Source: Gemmatimonadota bacterium (GTDB lineage Bacteria > JAAXHH01). From it: a stretch of 64,000 nucleotides of DNA. Below, piece after piece: positions 3,802 to 12,346 of the stretch. The stretch lies in contig VXRC01000038.1 of NCBI GenBank assembly GCA_009838645.1, positions 62,001 through 126,000 of the forward strand, given 5' to 3'. Position 1 is the first letter of the stretch, and each line of letters opens with the position of its first letter. A program made the translations under genes and the position numbers. Under the pieces are notes generated by a model. It was given only the letters and a program-made list of their open reading frames with translations. It was not told where the DNA came from and ran no database searches.

Positions 3802-3859
3802 GATGCTGGAACAAAACCGGGTCCCACAGGATTGATCCACCCGCGTCCGAGAGGTGGTC

Positions 3860-5968
3860 GTGGCAGAGAAAATTCTCGTTACAGACGCGTTGCCCTACGC
3901 GAACGGCAAGCTGCATATCGGTCATATCGCTGGTGTCCATCTGCCCGGCAACATCTACGTACGCTACCAGCGGCTGAAGGGCCGGGACGTCGTGCACGTC
4001 AGCGGATCGGACGACCACGGCGTGGCCATCACCCTGGCGGCCGAGAAGCAGGGGATCACGCCCAAGGAACTGGTGGACAAGTACTATCCCGTTATCCGGG
4101 GTGCGCTCGAAGACTTCGGCATCGTCTACGACAATTTCTCCCAGACCTCCCGCCCGATCCATCACGAAACGGCCCGGGACTATTTCCGCCGCCTGGATGA
4201 GAAGGGCTGTTTCGACGTGCGCGAGGTCGACCAGATCTACTGTCCGGCAAACAACCGTTTTCTGCCCGACCGCTACGTGGAGGGCACCTGCCCCCACTGC
4301 GGCTCGGGCCGGGCCAGGGGAGATCAATGCGAGGCCTGCGGCACCATTCTGGACGCCACGCAGCTTATCGATCCCCACAGCGATGTCTGCAAGGGATCCC
4401 TCGAGGTAAGACCGGCCAACCACTGGTATTTCAAGCTCGCCCGCATGTCCGCCCGGCTGCAGACTTGGATCGATACGAAAACGCACTGGAAGGTCAACGT
4501 GCGCAATTACTGCCAGGGCTGGTTCAACGAGGGGCTGTCCGACCGGCCCATCTCCCGGGACCTGGATTGGGGCGTAAAGCTGCCGATCGAGGAAGCGGTG
4601 GGCAAGGTCATGTACGTCTGGTTCGAGAACACGCTGGGCTACGTGTCGTCCACCCGGGAATGGGCGGTGGCGCAGGGCGACCCCGATCGGTGGAAGGACT
4701 ACTGGCTGAACCCGGACTGCAAGCTCGTCAATTTCCTCGGCAAGGACAACATCGTCTTCCACGCGATCCTCTGGCCGGCCATGATTATGGAGCACGGGGA
4801 TTTCGTCCTGCCTTCGGAGATCCCTGCCAACGAGTTTCTCAACATCGAGGGCCAAAAGCTGTCCACGAGCCGGAACTGGGCGGTCTGGCTGGACGAGTAC
4901 CTGGATGACTTCCCGCCCGATCCGATGCGTTACTGCCTGGCGTCGATTTCGCCCGAGACCAAGGACTCCGACTTTACGTGGAAGGACTTCCAGGCGCGCA
5001 ACAACAACGAACTGGCCGATATCTTCGGAAATTTCGTAAACCGGACGCTGACCTTCATCAACCGGTATTTCGACGGAGTGATCCCGGAACCGGGGACGTT
5101 TTCGCCGGAGGACCGGGAGATGCTTCAGGCCGTGGCCGGCGCTCCGGACCGTGTGGGCGCATGTTTCGAGTCGTTCCAGGTGCGGGGTGCCGTACGGGAG
5201 CTGATCGCCCTGGGAAACCAGTGCAACCGGTACTTCAACGACCAGGCGCCCTGGAACACGCGCAAGACCGACCTCGCACGTTGCGCCGCCACGCTCCACG
5301 TGTGCATGCAGACGGTGAGGGTCCTCGCCGTGGTCATGTCTCCCATCCTGCCGTTCAGCGCGGAGCGGCTGTGGAAGATGGCGGGCCTGGAAGGACGCGT
5401 CGATGCGCAGATGTGGGACGAAATCGAGATCGATGCGTCGTTGTCCGGCCGACCCATCGGCGAAATCGAAATCCTGTTCCACAAGATCGACGACGATACG
5501 ATCGACGAGCAGATCGGAAGGCTGGGCCGGTCCGATGCCTTGAAATCCGTGGAAGCGGAACCCGGCGGAACGAAATCCGTGGAAGCGGAACCCGGCGGAA
5601 CGAAATCCGTGGAAGCGGAACCCGCCGGGTCGGTTCGGACCGAACTCGTATCGATCGACGATTTCCGCCAGATCGATTTGCGCATCGCAGACATCGTGGC
5701 GGCGGAACCGGTACCCGGAACGGACCGGTTGCTCAGACTGCAGCTGTGCATCGGCGCGGAGGAGCGGCAGATCGTGTCCGGGATTGCCCCCGGGTATACG
5801 CCGGAGAAACTGGTCGGCCGGCAGATCGTGGTGGTGGCGAACCTGGAGCCCGCGAAAATCCGCGGCATGGAATCGAGGGGCATGCTGCTCGCGGCCGAAG
5901 ACGACGACGGCGCTCCCATCCTCCTCGGTCCGGACGTCCGCGTCCGATCCGGTTCATCGGTTACCTGA
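3860..5968 (+). CDS. metG: Methionyl-tRNA synthetase (with C-terminal tRNA-binding domain)
   Basis: This enzyme charges tRNA-Met. The class I HIGH signature is at residues 19-22 (KLHIGHIAG). A four-cysteine zinc knuckle region follows (CPANN..., CPHCGSG, CEACG), and the KMSKS equivalent is KLSTS near residue 333. The C-terminus is an EMAP/Trbp111-like tRNA-binding domain (DFRQIDLRIADIV onward). The linker between them contains a 10-residue tandem repeat. I chose GTG 3860 because GAGAGG at 3849-3854 sits 5 bases upstream; the GTG at 3854 would overlap that Shine-Dalgarno. The length of 702 residues is normal for the bacterial long form. Confidence 0.95.
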   Translation: MAEKILVTDALPYANGKLHIGHIAGVHLPGNIYVRYQRLKGRDVVHVSGSDDHGVAITLAAEKQGITPKELVDKYYPVIRGALEDFGIVYDNFSQTSRPIHHETARDYFRRLDEKGCFDVREVDQIYCPANNRFLPDRYVEGTCPHCGSGRARGDQCEACGTILDATQLIDPHSDVCKGSLEVRPANHWYFKLARMSARLQTWIDTKTHWKVNVRNYCQGWFNEGLSDRPISRDLDWGVKLPIEEAVGKVMYVWFENTLGYVSSTREWAVAQGDPDRWKDYWLNPDCKLVNFLGKDNIVFHAILWPAMIMEHGDFVLPSEIPANEFLNIEGQKLSTSRNWAVWLDEYLDDFPPDPMRYCLASISPETKDSDFTWKDFQARNNNELADIFGNFVNRTLTFINRYFDGVIPEPGTFSPEDREMLQAVAGAPDRVGACFESFQVRGAVRELIALGNQCNRYFNDQAPWNTRKTDLARCAATLHVCMQTVRVLAVVMSPILPFSAERLWKMAGLEGRVDAQMWDEIEIDASLSGRPIGEIEILFHKIDDDTIDEQIGRLGRSDALKSVEAEPGGTKSVEAEPGGTKSVEAEPAGSVRTELVSIDDFRQIDLRIADIVAAEPVPGTDRLLRLQLCIGAEERQIVSGIAPGYTPEKLVGRQIVVVANLEPAKIRGMESRGMLLAAEDDDGAPILLGPDVRVRSGSSVT
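5543..5628 (+). repeat. 30-bp in-frame tandem repeat in the metG linker
   Basis: A 30-base unit starting at 5543, 5573 and 5603 encodes KSVEAEPGGT nearly three times. The copies are almost identical at DNA level, so the duplication is recent. It lengthens the acidic linker between the anticodon-binding and C-terminal tRNA-binding domains. Confidence 0.9.
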
Positions 5969-6029: not shown

Positions 6030-6794
6030 TTGCTGTTCGATACGCATACCCATCTCACGGACGAAGCATTCGACGACGACCGCGCCGACGTGATCCAGCG
6101 GGCCCTGGACGCGGGCGTGGAACGCATGGTCGCCGTGGGGTATGATCTGGAGAGCAGCAGGGCCGCGGTGGCGCTCGCCGAAGACCGGGATTCCGTGTAT
6201 GCCGCCGCGGGCATCCACCCGTGCCACGTCCACGAAGCCCGTGAAGAGGACTACCGGGAAATCGAGAAACTGCTGAAGCATCCGACCGTCATCGCCGTGG
6301 GCGAAACCGGCATCGACCTGCATTACGACCGGTCCACCTACCCGCTGCAGGAGACGTCGTTCAGAAGACACATGGAGTGGGGCGGAAGCACGGGACTGCC
6401 GGTTATCGTGCACGACCGGGACGCCCACGCCGAGGTCATGACCATGCTGGGCGAGTTTCCCGGCGAGGAAACGACCGCGATCCTGCACTGCTTTACCGGG
6501 GACGTCGCCATGGCCGAAAGAGCTGTTTCCATGGGATGTTTCCTGGGGTTCGGCGGCATCGCGACGTTCAAGAACTCGACGGTGGGCACGGTGGTCTCCG
6601 GATTGCCAGCGGAATGCATCCTTGTCGAAACGGACGCACCCTATCTCGCGCCCGTACCCCACCGCGGACGCCGGAACGAACCATCATACCTCGTAAACAC
6701 GGCCGAAGCGGTCGCCCGTCACCGGGCCGTTACCGTGGATGAACTGGCACGGACCACAACCCAGAACGCGAACAAGGTGTTTCGAATCCATTGA
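6030..6794 (+). CDS. tatD: TatD-family metal-dependent hydrolase/DNase
   Basis: The start LLFDTHTHLTDE carries the HxH metal ligands of the TatD amidohydrolase barrel. Further hallmarks are GIHPCH, VIAVGETGIDLHYD (the catalytic Glu), PVIVHDRDA, LHCFTGD and ILVETDAPYLAP. TatD proteins are 3'-5' exonucleases or D-aminoacyl-tRNA-related hydrolases. TTG 6030 gives the standard N-terminus. No good Shine-Dalgarno is visible there, and the frame stays open upstream into the end of metG, so the start is the least certain point. The stop overlaps the next gene's TTG by 4 bases, implying translational coupling. Confidence 0.85.
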   Translation: MLFDTHTHLTDEAFDDDRADVIQRALDAGVERMVAVGYDLESSRAAVALAEDRDSVYAAAGIHPCHVHEAREEDYREIEKLLKHPTVIAVGETGIDLHYDRSTYPLQETSFRRHMEWGGSTGLPVIVHDRDAHAEVMTMLGEFPGEETTAILHCFTGDVAMAERAVSMGCFLGFGGIATFKNSTVGTVVSGLPAECILVETDAPYLAPVPHRGRRNEPSYLVNTAEAVARHRAVTVDELARTTTQNANKVFRIH

Positions 6795-7663
6795 GTACGG
6801 TGCTCGATCCTCCTGAAGACCTGCTGGCCAGCCTGCGCCGATCGGATTTTCGCCCATCCAGGTCGAAGGGTCAGCACTTCCTGAACGATACGTCCATCGC
6901 CCGCCGCATCATCGAATCGGCGGGCGTAACGAAGGATACGGCCGTACTTGAAATTGGTCCGGGGGCCGGCGCGTTGACCCGCCACCTTATCACACTGGCC
7001 GGCGGTGTGACCGCCGTGGAAGTCGATTCCAGGCTGGCAGGCGTCCTCCAGGAAGCCTACGGCCGATACGATCACATGACCATCGTGATCGGAGACGTGC
7101 TCGATCTGGACCTGGCCGACCTGATGGGGAAGTATGGCGAGCCCGGGTTCGTACTCGTGGCCAATCTGCCCTACGGGATTACGGGTCCCGTGCTTGACCG
7201 GTTGATTGCCCATCGCGGAAAGATCAGGTGCGCGGTCATCATGGTTCAGCATGAAGTGGGCGGACGCCTGACGGCGCGGCCGGGTACGAAAGCCTACGGC
7301 GCGATCACCGCCATCATGGCGTACCACTACGCCGTGGAATCGTTGTTCCGGGTGGGCGGCGACCGGTTCGTTCCCCGTCCGGCGGTGGATTCGGTCGTCC
7401 TCCGGTTGACGCCCCATGAGCGGCCGCCGGTTACGGTCGGGGACGCCGACCTGTTGAACGACGTGATCAAGGCGGCCTTTCAACATCGGCGCAAGATGCT
7501 GCACCACGCGATGAATCGCCTGGTTCCCGGTTCCGCCGGCTATCTCTCGGATCATACCGGCATCGACCTGAAACGACGCGGTGAAACCATGGACCTGAAC
7601 GAGTTCGCGGTGCTTGCCGATGCGCTTCGGGTATTCCGGGACCACCACCAGGACGATTGCTGA
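6791..7663 (+). CDS. rsmA: 16S rRNA (adenine-1518/1519-N6)-dimethyltransferase
   Basis: The KsgA/RsmA signature is complete: KGQHFLND at the N-terminus, the SAM motif VLEIGPGAGALTRHL, an acidic residue in VEVDSRL, and the catalytic motif IV VANLPYGIT. The C-terminal helical domain contains AAFQHRRKML. The enzyme dimethylates two adjacent adenines near the 3' end of 16S rRNA during small-subunit maturation. TTG 6791 overlaps the tatD stop (TTGA). The length is about 290 residues, slightly longer than typical because of the N-terminal segment. Confidence 0.93.
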   Translation: MSTVLDPPEDLLASLRRSDFRPSRSKGQHFLNDTSIARRIIESAGVTKDTAVLEIGPGAGALTRHLITLAGGVTAVEVDSRLAGVLQEAYGRYDHMTIVIGDVLDLDLADLMGKYGEPGFVLVANLPYGITGPVLDRLIAHRGKIRCAVIMVQHEVGGRLTARPGTKAYGAITAIMAYHYAVESLFRVGGDRFVPRPAVDSVVLRLTPHERPPVTVGDADLLNDVIKAAFQHRRKMLHHAMNRLVPGSAGYLSDHTGIDLKRRGETMDLNEFAVLADALRVFRDHHQDDC

Positions 7664-7674
7664 CGGACCGCAAT

Positions 7675-8922
7675 ATGCGCTTCCGCTTTTCACATTCGGC
7701 CAGAACGAGGATGGCGAGCAGAAAAAGCCAGCGCCGGTCGTACATCCTGTACGCCGGCCTCGGAACGGCTGCTGTCGTGCTGCTGGTCCTCGCCGTGTGG
7801 ATCATGCTGTATGAAAACCAGGCCAGGAAGGTCGTGGACTGGCTGCTGGACCGGCCCATCCCGGTTGCCGTGCCCGAACTCCAACGGACGTCCGCCTGGA
7901 AAACGGACCAGCAGGCGTTTCACGCGATGGAAGCGGCCCTGTACGGTGCGTTCATGAATCTGCAGGTCACACCGGACAGGATACGGGACACCGTGCCGCG
8001 CACCGCGACGGCCACGGGCCGTTGGAGGTCCATGGAACGAAGGATCATCGTTTCGGATACCTATTCGCTTACCCAATGCAATCTCGAGATCGCCAGGGCG
8101 GTCGTCCGGGCGGGCGGAAAGGTCTCCCGTGCGGAGGAACGGACCAGGACCGGGGCGTTGCTGCTCGAAATCACCTTCGATGGCGACGTAACCCATCGCC
8201 TCGATATAACCCGCGACCCGGCTGTTCGCCGTAAAACGGGTCGTCTTGCCGTCGTGATCGCTTATACGGACGAAGATCAGCGAGGCATGGTCGAGGAACT
8301 CTCCGAATTCACCCGGCCTCTCAATTTCGCCCTGTTTCCCTGGGCTGACGGCGCAAACGAATTGGCTGCCGAACTCACGCGCGGCGATCACGAGGTTATG
8401 GCGCTGCTACCCGTTCAACCGGCGTCTGACGCCGCCGGTCTGCCGCGCAGGAGATCCGTGTCGCCCACGCACTCGGAGCTGACCAACCGCCGCGTCGTGG
8501 AAGACGCCCTTTCCACGCTACCCGGGGCTCAGGGCGTCCTTCGGTATCCAGCCGGCCGCATGGAAAATGAAGCCGAGGTGCTGGCCCCCGTGCTGGACGA
8601 ACTGGGCAAACGGAACCTGTACTACCTGGACAACCCGGGCGGACCGGGAGGTTCAAGCGGACCGGGCGGACCAGGCGGTCCGGAGGATCGGGTCGGGGGA
8701 AGCGGCCGGCTTCGGGCCTGGGGTGTGCTCGATCCCTTGTACAATCCCGTAATCATATCCATGAACCTGGACCGCGCGTCGCTTACCGCCCTGGACGACA
8801 CCCGCGCCGTCGTCATCGCCGATGCCAGGTCCCATACCCTTCAGGTGCTGATGGACCGGATGAGGTATCTTGAAATCAGAGGGATCGAGTTCGTACGGGT
8901 TTCCGACCTCGTGGACAACTGA
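7675..8922 (+). CDS. Divergent polysaccharide deacetylase family protein, membrane-anchored
   Basis: One N-terminal membrane segment (YILYAGLGTAAVVLLVLAVWIML) precedes an extracytoplasmic region. The C-terminal half matches the divergent polysaccharide deacetylase family: LAVVIAYTDEDQ, LNFALFPWADGANELAAEL, HEVMALLPVQP, and a final ARSHTLQVLMDRMRYLEIRGIEFV. In this family the deacetylase barrel is kept but the classical His-x3-His metal site is not. A Gly/Pro-rich insertion follows LYYLDNPGG. ATG 7675 is used; TTG 7657 and ATG 7711 are in-frame alternatives. It lies directly after rsmA and before a PdxJ-fold gene. The substrate is unknown and probably an envelope polysaccharide. Confidence 0.7.
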   Translation: MRFRFSHSARTRMASRKSQRRSYILYAGLGTAAVVLLVLAVWIMLYENQARKVVDWLLDRPIPVAVPELQRTSAWKTDQQAFHAMEAALYGAFMNLQVTPDRIRDTVPRTATATGRWRSMERRIIVSDTYSLTQCNLEIARAVVRAGGKVSRAEERTRTGALLLEITFDGDVTHRLDITRDPAVRRKTGRLAVVIAYTDEDQRGMVEELSEFTRPLNFALFPWADGANELAAELTRGDHEVMALLPVQPASDAAGLPRRRSVSPTHSELTNRRVVEDALSTLPGAQGVLRYPAGRMENEAEVLAPVLDELGKRNLYYLDNPGGPGGSSGPGGPGGPEDRVGGSGRLRAWGVLDPLYNPVIISMNLDRASLTALDDTRAVVIADARSHTLQVLMDRMRYLEIRGIEFVRVSDLVDN

Positions 8923-8937
8923 CACCGGAGATCACCC

Positions 8938-9696
8938 ATGGTAAAACTGAGTGTATGCGTAGACCAGGTCGCCGCCCTTCGGAATATCGCGAAACGGGGG
9001 GAACCCGATCCCATGACTGCGGTAATGATGTCCCAGGTGAGCGGCGCGGACGCCGTAACGATTTCGTGGGCTGCCGCCGATTCGCTCTACCTGGGCGGGG
9101 AATATGAAATCATCAGGCAACTCGTGCACACGCACCTTAACCTGATCGCACCGCCGGACCTGGAAGTACTGCGTAGTATCTTGACGATTTCGCCCGATAT
9201 GGTTACCCTTGTTCCCGAGGGTTACGGGCACGCCGGCCTGAGAAACGACTGGTCCGATTCCTCATGGCCCGAAGGCGATTCCCTGGAACGGCCGGTGGAA
9301 CGCATGCTGAAGGCCCTGCAGGAAAAAGGGATCCTGACGAGCATATTGATCACGCCCACCGCTTCGCACGTCCGGCAATGCGCCGAATTCAAGGCAGACT
9401 ACGTCCACCTTGACGCAAGCCGGTTCGTACAGGCCGCCGACCCCGAAGAGAAGGGCCGGATGTTCCAGGAAATCGCCGGTACGGCCAGGACCGCGTCACG
9501 TTTGAACATGGGCGTTACCCTGGGACGGGGCGTCGATTACCGGACGGCGGCGGATCTGGCGGGTATCGCCGAGGTGGAGGAAGTGGTGGTAGGCTACGCC
9601 GTGGCCGTGCGGGCGATGACCATCGGGTTCGAGCAAGCCGTCCGCGACCTGGTCGGCATCATCCGCCACGCGCCGAGGTCCCAGGCAGACTGGTAA
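8938..9696 (+). CDS. PdxJ-fold protein lacking PdxJ catalytic residues
   Basis: The overall match to pyridoxine-5'-phosphate synthase is clear along the whole 252 residues (LSVCVDQVAALRN; GADAVTISW; HLNLI; LVPEG; GIAEVEEVVVGYAVAVRAMTIG). Aligned by eye with E. coli PdxJ, however, the active-site residues are gone. The His of the NIDH motif is Gln10. The VHLRE motif is IS-W-A-A (Ser43 and Ala45 instead of His and Arg). The NLE glutamate is Ile70, the AGHG histidine is Arg197 region, and the IGHA histidine is Tyr220. It is therefore unlikely to make pyridoxine phosphate. The neighbours are SecD-like and SecF-like genes, with a 1-base gap to the former. Confidence 0.75.
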   Translation: MVKLSVCVDQVAALRNIAKRGEPDPMTAVMMSQVSGADAVTISWAAADSLYLGGEYEIIRQLVHTHLNLIAPPDLEVLRSILTISPDMVTLVPEGYGHAGLRNDWSDSSWPEGDSLERPVERMLKALQEKGILTSILITPTASHVRQCAEFKADYVHLDASRFVQAADPEEKGRMFQEIAGTARTASRLNMGVTLGRGVDYRTAADLAGIAEVEEVVVGYAVAVRAMTIGFEQAVRDLVGIIRHAPRSQADW

Positions 9697-9697
9697 C

Positions 9698-11425
9698 GTG
9701 GCCAACCGTGCCGCACTCGGAAGCGGTCCCGAAAGGAACAGTACCATTCTCAAGCGCATTTCATTTCTGGTGTTTCTCGCCGTCACCCTGCTAGGCGCGG
9801 TCCTGGTCTCCCCGACCATCAGGCTGTGGTTTTCGTCTCCCGAGTCCATCGAAGCGCTTGCGCCCGAAGAAAGGAAAGCGCTTTACAGCCAGTCCACGGT
9901 ACCGGGCATCGACCTGGCCGGCGGTTATCGGCTAGCTGTAAGCACGGACCTTTCCCGGTTCACGGAACGGGGCAGGACCCGGGCGGTGGAAGGCCTGGTC
10001 GAGAACTGGCGGCGGCGCCTTAACGCCTTCGGGATCTCCGAACCGGTCATTACCGCGCGGGAGAACGACACGTTCGAAATCGTCGTTCCCCTGAGCGCGG
10101 ACACCGGTCTCATAAGCAGGATAATCCGGGAATCGGGCGAGATCACACTGCATTTGTTCAAGGACGGCGCGGAAGTACAGGCCTTGCGGCAACGTATTGA
10201 CGATGCCCTTCGTGAGCGGACCTCGTCCGCCGCGGCCACGTCCGCCGGAAATGGCGGCCAGGAATCGGCGATAACGGTAGGACCGGAATCGGCCGGATCC
10301 GGGGGATCGGCATCGACCGGGCCGGGCGAATTCAGCGCGTTGCTTGCAAGCATTACGGTGGAGGAAGGGATCGGGGACATCGCGGTCCGGGAAGACAACC
10401 TGGATGCCGTACAGGCCATACTGGCCGATTCAACGGTACAGGCCGGCATTAGGGCCTTCAACCTGGCCAATCCGCCCGCCGGCTCCTTCGCATGGGCTTC
10501 CGTCCCGGTGGAACGCGGAGGCAGGCTGTTCCATCCGCTCTACTTCATCAATCAGGATATCGACCTCAACGTGCAGCCGGTGGCGTCGGCCGTGGTCAGC
10601 GACGCTTCGGTAACGGTGAACCGGGGCGCGTACGCGGTACGCCTGTTCCTGCAGGACGAGGGCAGGGAGAGTCTGGCCAACCTGTCCAGCGCCAACGCGG
10701 GAAACCGTGTTGCCATCAAGATGAATGACCAGGTGTACGTGAAGTTGAGTATACAGGGCAGAATACCCGACGGACGGATAGAAGTACCTGGCGGAGACTC
10801 GCTGGAAGAGGCCCGCGCCCTTGCGGTCATCCTGGAATCCGAGTCGCCGCCCCTGGACGTGGCGCTCCTGGATCAGCCGGCGGATGCGCCCTCACCGCTG
10901 GGTGAAGGGGCCGCGGACAGCGCGGCCGGCGCCGGCGCGATCGGTCTCGGATTGCTCTGCGCATTGTTCGTTATCCGGTACCGGGCCGCCGGCCTGCTTT
11001 TCGTTATGGGGATGCTGCACTTTCTGATCATGACCGGAGCGGTACTGAGGCTGTGGAACATCGCCGGGATTGCGCCATATTTCACGCTTGCCGGCGCGGT
11101 GGGTTTACTCGGAGCGGTGCTTGTCTTCTCCTCCGTGCATCTCTGGATCTTCGAATACCTCCGGGCGGAATCCGGGACGGAATCTTCGGTCCGCCAGGAC
11201 GTCATGGCCTCGCTCGAGAAGATCAGGCCTGTCCTGGTCTGGACCCATGTCATGCTGCTGCTCGTATCGGTGAGCCTGGTCGTAGTCGGCACCGACGCCG
11301 TCGTCAATTTCGGCCTCGTGCTGTTCTCCGGCGCGGCCGGCAGCCTGCTCACCTGCATGTGCTGGACGAACATGCTGCTGTCCTCCCTGGTGGCGGACTG
11401 GCAGATCAGAAAGTTGAGCGTATGA
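9698..11425 (+). CDS. SecD-like membrane protein with degenerate proton-relay motif
   Basis: Layout follows SecD: an N-terminal membrane helix (residues ~20-40), then GIDLAGGYRL, which corresponds to the SecD GLDLQGG motif. A P1-type periplasmic region follows (SVTVNRGAYAVRLFLQDEG...), then about five C-terminal helices. The helix that in SecD reads GMAVDAN-V-L-I-F-E-R reads VFSSVHLWIFEYLRAE here, so the conserved aspartate is missing. The P1 region also holds a Ser/Gly-rich insertion around residues 175-210. Start GTG 9698 follows the previous stop by one base. The gene probably descends from secD but cannot work by the standard proton-driven mechanism. Canonical secDF is presumably elsewhere in the genome (inference). 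Confidence 0.7.
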   Translation: MANRAALGSGPERNSTILKRISFLVFLAVTLLGAVLVSPTIRLWFSSPESIEALAPEERKALYSQSTVPGIDLAGGYRLAVSTDLSRFTERGRTRAVEGLVENWRRRLNAFGISEPVITARENDTFEIVVPLSADTGLISRIIRESGEITLHLFKDGAEVQALRQRIDDALRERTSSAAATSAGNGGQESAITVGPESAGSGGSASTGPGEFSALLASITVEEGIGDIAVREDNLDAVQAILADSTVQAGIRAFNLANPPAGSFAWASVPVERGGRLFHPLYFINQDIDLNVQPVASAVVSDASVTVNRGAYAVRLFLQDEGRESLANLSSANAGNRVAIKMNDQVYVKLSIQGRIPDGRIEVPGGDSLEEARALAVILESESPPLDVALLDQPADAPSPLGEGAADSAAGAGAIGLGLLCALFVIRYRAAGLLFVMGMLHFLIMTGAVLRLWNIAGIAPYFTLAGAVGLLGAVLVFSSVHLWIFEYLRAESGTESSVRQDVMASLEKIRPVLVWTHVMLLLVSVSLVVVGTDAVVNFGLVLFSGAAGSLLTCMCWTNMLLSSLVADWQIRKLSV

Positions 11426-12273
11426 TGGAAAATGGACTCGCCGCACTGTACAGAAAACTGATCGACCGGCCGGGGGGCGTTTACACCTTCGCCGTCATAC
11501 TGGCCGCGGCGGGGATTGCCGCGCCGACGACGAAGGCCGAACATGCCGTCGACGACGGCGTGATGGCGCTGCTGCTTTCCGGCGACCTGCTCTTCGGCCT
11601 TTTTGTGACCATGCTGATTGTACTGGTCATCGTCGGCGCGCGGATCGACGACCGGCCGGGCAAAAGCATCGCGCTGGCCCTCGGCGTAATGGCGGTCGGC
11701 AGCATCGTACGGATGCTGCTCCCCTTTTCCCGTTCGATCGGCTGGCTGGCGGAATGGAACGGGGCCATGCTCGGTATCATGATCATCACCCTCTACCTGT
11801 CGCTCCGCATAGGCGCTCGATTCGCCGTGGCGGCCATGGGCTGTGCCCTTTACACCATGTTCGTCACGGCGGGGATAACCCTTAGCCTGGCAGATCGGAT
11901 TACGGTGCCGGGAATCTTGACGCTGACGTCCGTGGGGGCCCTGGCGGTGGTCCTGGCTTTCCTGGGTTACAGCCTGGTCAGGAGCCGGATTGAATCCGCG
12001 CGGCGGGATCCGGTCAGCCATTCCGTGCGTACCGGCATGGTGCAGGCCATGCCCTTTCTGGTGCTGGCCGGCCTGGCCGTGCTGTTGTTCGCCGCTCCGC
12101 TGGCCCTCGTCACGGACGGTCCCCTGCGTGATTTCGGTCTGTACCTGATGGTCGGCGGTCCGATGGGCGCATGCGCCGCGTTGATGTCCGCGATTCCGCT
12201 CGCCGCGATGACCCAAAACATCCGGTTCGAGGCCGCCCCGCCCGCACGGCGTGGAGGCCGCCGGCAGCGATAA
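11422..12273 (+). CDS. SecF-like multi-pass membrane protein, degenerate
   Basis: This 283-residue protein has six or seven hydrophobic helices and starts with an ATGA overlap on the SecD-like gene. A region reading LYTMFVTAGITLSLAD, then LTSVGALAVVLAFLGYSLV and a basic segment RSRIESAR, mirrors the SecF order of GFTLSL, LTIIGYSIND and R-x-R-E. The polar residues after GYS (the Asn/Asp pair) are replaced by LVRSR. The large periplasmic P4-like domain of SecF is absent. The final codons and stop lie inside a 19-bp tandem repeat. A further start at ATG 11425 would change only one residue. Confidence 0.6.
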   Translation: MMENGLAALYRKLIDRPGGVYTFAVILAAAGIAAPTTKAEHAVDDGVMALLLSGDLLFGLFVTMLIVLVIVGARIDDRPGKSIALALGVMAVGSIVRMLLPFSRSIGWLAEWNGAMLGIMIITLYLSLRIGARFAVAAMGCALYTMFVTAGITLSLADRITVPGILTLTSVGALAVVLAFLGYSLVRSRIESARRDPVSHSVRTGMVQAMPFLVLAGLAVLLFAAPLALVTDGPLRDFGLYLMVGGPMGACAALMSAIPLAAMTQNIRFEAAPPARRGGRRQR

Positions 12274-12346
12274 GGGCCGCCGGCAGCGATAAGGGCCGCC
12301 GGCAGCGATAAGGGCCGCCGGCAGCGGCAGGGCCGGCAGCGGCAAG
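12256..12346 (+). repeat. 19-bp tandem repeat across the SecF-like stop codon
   Basis: The unit GGCCGCCGGCAGCGATAAG occurs three times from 12256 (12256-12274, 12275-12293, 12294-12312), followed by a degraded copy and further GGCAGC-rich sequence to about 12346. The TAA in the first copy is the stop codon of the upstream gene. GCCGGC cores are self-complementary, so the transcript can fold into short hairpins. Confidence 0.9.

Follow-up and report, generated by a model that had tools for sequence, protein, structure and literature searches.

A PdxJ-fold protein without the catalytic triad, encoded among deacetylase-like, SecD-like and SecF-like genes in a conserved gemmatimonadote operon

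Plant PDX1.2, a non-catalytic homologue of PdxS, assists its live paralogue within one complex. The closest described relative of the protein studied here, which was named PdxJL, is the PNP synthase PdxJ (PF03740, TIGR00559; structures 1ho1, 1m5w and 3gk0), and the presence of PdxJ is regarded as a signature of the DXP-dependent vitamin B6 route (PMC9997740). The immediate neighbour of PdxJL belongs to the PF04748 family, as does E. coli SddA/YibQ, which deacetylates denuded peptidoglycan strands; the authors of that work mention an inactive homologue, ATU2773, which is nevertheless retained together with its partner gene (PMC11870482). ATU2773 provides a precedent for the retention in a conserved operon of a deacetylase without metal ligands, but it is a different protein from PdxJL, and its operon contains envC and not pdxJ or secDF.

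The PdxJ barrel and its active site

PdxJL lies in the window, the whole stretch of 64,000 nucleotides that was analysed. The genes considered are the following:

3854..5968, + strand: metG, ordinary, conserved upstream neighbour
6791..7663, + strand: ksgA (rsmA), ordinary, conserved upstream neighbour
7657..8922, + strand: divergent polysaccharide deacetylase of SddA/YibQ type (PF04748, 86.4 bits)
8938..9696, + strand: PdxJL, 252 aa, PdxJ-fold protein in which the triad and the majority of the ligand residues are lost
9698..11425, + strand: SecD-like protein with motif loss, scoring under the cut-off of the secD equivalog model
11422..12273, + strand: SecF-like membrane protein, with motif and domain loss

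The PdxJL reading frame starts with ATG, is preceded by GGAG and occupies exactly 8938-9696 of the forward strand. A preliminary description of this DNA had claimed similarity to PdxJ from end to end, and this was borne out. PdxJL matched PF03740 with 135.8 bits (gathering score 24.5), residues 3-240 being aligned to positions 1-232 of the 234 in the profile, as for a full-length homologue. When it was used as a phmmer query against the PDB, eight PdxJ sequences were matched. The AF2 model, which was obtained from an alignment of the 15 orthologues and other PdxJ, was a TIM barrel of the PdxJ type (pLDDT 90.4, pTM 0.89), and its best 16 PDB matches in Foldseek were all PdxJ (TM 0.86-0.92). PdxJL differs from PNP synthase in its six-residue insertion with a conserved WP, its conserved RHAP C-terminus and its score against TIGR00559, the pdxJ equivalog model (105.6 versus a cut-off of 192.75); it also fell below the cut-offs of five further NCBIfam models.

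Alignment with E. coli PdxJ demonstrated that the catalytic triad H45/E72/H193 was replaced by S/I/R in PdxJL and in all 14 of its orthologues. In PdxJL, the replacements N9C, H12Q, R20A, R47A, H52L, T102G, E153H and H216Y were also found, while D11, R17, G194 and G215 were retained together with the structural glycines and prolines. These positions are those that we take to form the active site of E. coli PdxJ; most of them proved to be conserved in 95% or more of the 32 live PdxJ used for comparison, which supports their importance. The replacement of the NIDH His, the VHLRE His and Arg, the NLE Glu, the AGHG His and the IGHA His, noted in the preliminary description, was therefore real, and alignment to PdxJ of known structure placed no His or Glu at the catalytic positions. 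Because the ancestral NIDH and VVGH motifs were still present in the most divergent orthologue (G015), H12 and H216 were lost late; H45, E72 and H193 were absent from every orthologue.

It is highly improbable that PdxJL still acts as a PNP synthase by means of other residues. Its score exceeds the Pfam PdxJ cut-off, but the residues that it has lost are those so widely conserved in live PdxJ, it scores below all NCBIfam equivalog cut-offs, and the genome has an intact PdxJ. Judging from the sequence, synthesis of PNP by PdxJL may be excluded with high confidence.

The second PdxJ of the genome and selection on PdxJL

A search of the same genome for a canonical PdxJ, as proposed in the preliminary description, located one at C40:26924-27637 (272.9 bits), with H45, R47, E72, T102 and H193 present. 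It carries NVNK, HPRPD and NIEG motifs, is presumably of the Bacteroides type and adjoins a frame that was named by eye as a SerA-like dehydrogenase. PdxA was present in the genome, and PdxS was absent from it. The gene content suggests that the organism is a B6 prototroph. Considering that the genome harbours both an intact second PdxJ and PdxA, it may be concluded that PdxJL is not its B6 enzyme. The PdxA sequence (L092; G000 C50:4948-6021) makes up the C-terminal part of one long frame (763 aa, counted from the first ATG). The N-terminal part of this frame by eye resembles a four-carbon acid sugar kinase, an arrangement known from PdxA2-type systems.

An origin of PdxJL from the intact PdxJ of its genome by recent duplication was rejected, since the two proteins are only about 21-22% identical, PdxJL is up to 34% identical to PdxJ of other lineages, and synteny indicates descent in place. 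This low identity also separates PdxJL from plant PDX1.2, which belongs to the unrelated PdxS route; the two would be alike as vitamin B6 synthase homologues retained as pseudoenzymes.

PdxJL was found in 15 of the 16 genomes of the phylum that were examined. It occurs in all 12 members of the genus, in a second genus of the same family and in two more families of the order. The identity between orthologues was 46-96%. True loss was not supported for the remaining genome (G012), the 3.5 kb contig of which stops inside the SecD-like gene before PdxJL is reached. Among 384 genomes, orthologues scored 416 bits or more, and no other sequence exceeded 175 bits; a widespread PdxJL family was rejected, its orthologues being confined in this sample to the phylum.

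Between species, the dN/dS of PdxJL relative to the window copy was 0.09-0.27, with a median of 0.164; the intact PdxJ, metG and ksgA gave medians of 0.154, 0.142 and 0.233, respectively. PdxJL is thus under purifying selection similar to that on the intact PdxJ. The dN/dS values and the conservation led us to reject pseudogene decay, and together with the intact second PdxJ and the retention in three families they strongly support the earlier suggestion of a repurposed rather than decaying barrel. The scrambled catalytic residues and three degenerate neighbours would suit a slowly decaying relic without function, but the frame is intact in 15 genomes of three families and evolves like a live PdxJ, and a pair of dead copies from another lineage is 82% identical despite saturated synonymous sites. 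Such a relic is the most improbable of the readings considered, and it is nearly certain that PdxJL is retained for a function.

Twelve of the 20 former active-site positions were invariant among PdxJL sequences, whereas 6.0 were expected (p=0.004), in a small test based on a chosen list of E. coli sites and only four deep lineages. The invariant residues were mostly new in identity (S43, I70, G100, H157, D159, A160 and R197). In these alignments, the pocket seems to have been re-specified and not given up.

The main rival to the explanation preferred below is that PdxJL is a new enzyme, in which the barrel and the phosphate-binding loops are kept and S43, W44, H157, D159 and R197 serve another reaction, the substrate of which might be a phosphosugar. 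Changes of chemistry are frequent among TIM-barrel phosphate enzymes, the fold of PdxJL is confidently predicted, and H157, D159 and R197, which are capable of acid/base catalysis, are fixed in three families. However, other dead PdxJs, some of them in similar neighbourhoods, carry mutually inconsistent residues and so share no common new active site, and none of the adjoining operon genes encodes a metabolic enzyme. A new enzyme is therefore considered rather unlikely, at something over one chance in five.

The operon and a possible role of PdxJL

The genes around PdxJL are closely packed. The deacetylase-like gene ends 15 bp before PdxJL, the SecD-like gene begins 1 bp after it, and the start of the SecF-like gene overlaps the SecD-like stop codon. 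The order metG-tatD-ksgA-deacetylase-PdxJL-SecD-SecF is kept throughout the genus, and the order metG-ksgA-deacetylase-PdxJL-SecD was found in G013, G014 and G015 as far as their contigs extend; the arrangement thus spans three families.

These neighbours have also lost their motifs. In the deacetylase-like protein of the genus, the IDD, HMPME, NNHMGS and IGH motifs were all replaced, and the Asp/His metal ligands were not found. This loss was stepwise: the motifs were intact in G014, partial in G015 and G013 and completely lost in the genus of the window. The SecD-like protein does not qualify as a SecD subunit, since it scored 129.6 bits against TIGR01129 (cut-off 244.4 bits) and the VDAN aspartate was replaced; the VDANVLIFERI and DANLTT membrane motifs were absent. 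In both the window and G013, the SecF-like protein had neither a periplasmic domain nor the NDTIVVxDRIRE motif. A fused SecDF with intact motifs was found elsewhere in the genome, at C10. Four adjacent genes that lose catalytic motifs together, yet stay under selection, represent a rare case.

In another lineage, the order deacetylase-PdxJ-SecD-SecF was accompanied by an intact PdxJ triad and intact SecD and SecF motifs (G151). The deacetylase-like neighbour there (L127:6631-7713) had lost its motifs although PdxJ, SecD and SecF were intact, which indicates that loss of the deacetylase can come first. The deacetylase-pdxJ pair was found in three further genomes.

It is probable that the barrel does a job other than PNP synthesis. 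With confidence slightly better than even, we propose that PdxJL is a pseudoenzyme-type PdxJ homologue serving an envelope complex as a non-catalytic subunit with a binding or regulatory task; this is favoured because the replaced pocket is conserved in the phylum and the envelope partners lack their motifs. The ancestor would have been a once catalytic PdxJ within an old deacetylase-pdxJ-secD-secF operon. PNP synthesis would then have been taken over by the separate Bacteroides-type PdxJ in this phylum, and by PdxS in other lineages, and the work of the secretion motor by the fused SecDF encoded elsewhere in the genome. The operon copies would subsequently have lost their catalytic and ion-relay residues while the proteins were retained, with selection keeping the barrel and its re-specified pocket. 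PdxJL would act as a cytoplasmic subunit together with membrane-anchored deacetylase-like, SecD-like and SecF-like partners. We infer this order of events, as well as the association of the proteins into one complex and the binding of a ligand by the pocket. The complex is deduced from gene order, which could be historical, and with the barrel in the cytoplasm and most of the deacetylase in the periplasm, the two do not have to be in contact.

Two tandem repeats were noted in these genes. In metG, the linker that precedes the tRNA-binding domain contains a repeat of KSVEAEPGGT type, encoded by a 30-base repeat at 5542-5628 (2.9 copies, 98% match). At 12256-12326, at the end of the SecF-like gene and just beyond it, the 19-base unit GGCCGCCGGCAGCGATAAG is present in 3.7 perfect copies.

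PdxJ homologues without the triad in other lineages

The second tier of the PdxJL search (at most 175 bits) included other PdxJs with lost catalytic residues. Matches to PF03740 and PF01680 were crossed over the 384 genomes, and the residues were then read. The named control Synechococcus elongatus matched both families and lay outside the residue reading. A PdxJ homologue occurred together with a true PdxS in 16 genomes, and the intact H45/E72/H193 triad was missing in 15 of them; the one genome with a triad, G014, owes it to a separate live copy. In the inspected subset of PdxS-negative genomes with a readable PdxJ, the triad was missing in only 3 of 67, in one of which (G010) a live copy was merely split between contigs. 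The association of dead PdxJ with PdxS was strong (Fisher p 1e-12, uncorrected for relatedness). In two of the 15 (G104 and G244), E72Q was the only change in the triad, so these proteins, judged by their residues, could have lost activity recently or could even still be active. An apparent PdxJ fusion in the same two genomes was an artefact of an over-extended frame. Dead PdxJ for which no PdxS was found occurred in G106 (L193) and G203 (L194); these organisms are possibly B6 auxotrophs or use an unknown route. A literature search that covered few subscription journals yielded no paper on catalytically dead PdxJ.

The replacements varied between the dead lineages and none was common to all, while P27, G38, P88, G215 and G226 stayed. 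Even the most degenerate full-length protein (G343) was modelled as a PdxJ barrel. On the PdxJ tree, a switch between live and dead forms had to occur three times or more: G070 was placed beside the live G213, the f92 family formed a second group, and a larger long-branched set included PdxJL. On this tree the dead PdxJ did not form a single clade, although long branches make its deep joins unreliable.

Several of these lineages also have a deacetylase-family gene directly upstream of the dead PdxJ. It may be supposed that the barrel, live or dead, has always had a structural or regulatory role as well, tied to the upstream PF04748 deacetylase, and that its catalytic activity disappears each time a different route to PLP arises; this differs from the non-catalytic envelope subunit proposed above mainly in timing. 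Such moonlighting agrees with the many lineages in which PdxJ, whether dead or live, directly follows a gene of the PF04748 family, with the almost complete association between dead PdxJ and PdxS, and with the three or more live/dead changes on the tree. However, the dead PdxJs of G193, G106, G120 and G068 have other neighbours, and gene order alone is weak evidence of function. We consider this supposition unlikely, though more likely than the relic and the residual PNP synthase.

These observations, like the degenerate deacetylase, SecD and SecF neighbours, go beyond the preliminary description and point to a second function of a well-studied enzyme fold. Because a PdxJ homologue in a genome with PdxS was nearly always dead in this survey, pathway calls made there by homology only would be wrong. 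A broader proposal, offered tentatively and at well below even chances, is that in several bacterial lineages PdxJ has an unrecognised non-catalytic role linked to a conserved envelope operon, that takeover of PLP synthesis by PdxS or a second PdxJ has repeatedly led to loss of catalysis with retention of the barrel, and that the entire operon of this phylum now encodes pseudoenzymes retained together as one new envelope complex.

In several unrelated genomes, genes for small putative lipoproteins lie upstream of a PdxJ, whether dead or live (L138, L143, L185, L189, L127 and L130). The three that were scanned had no Pfam match, and several begin with C-x-NPF.
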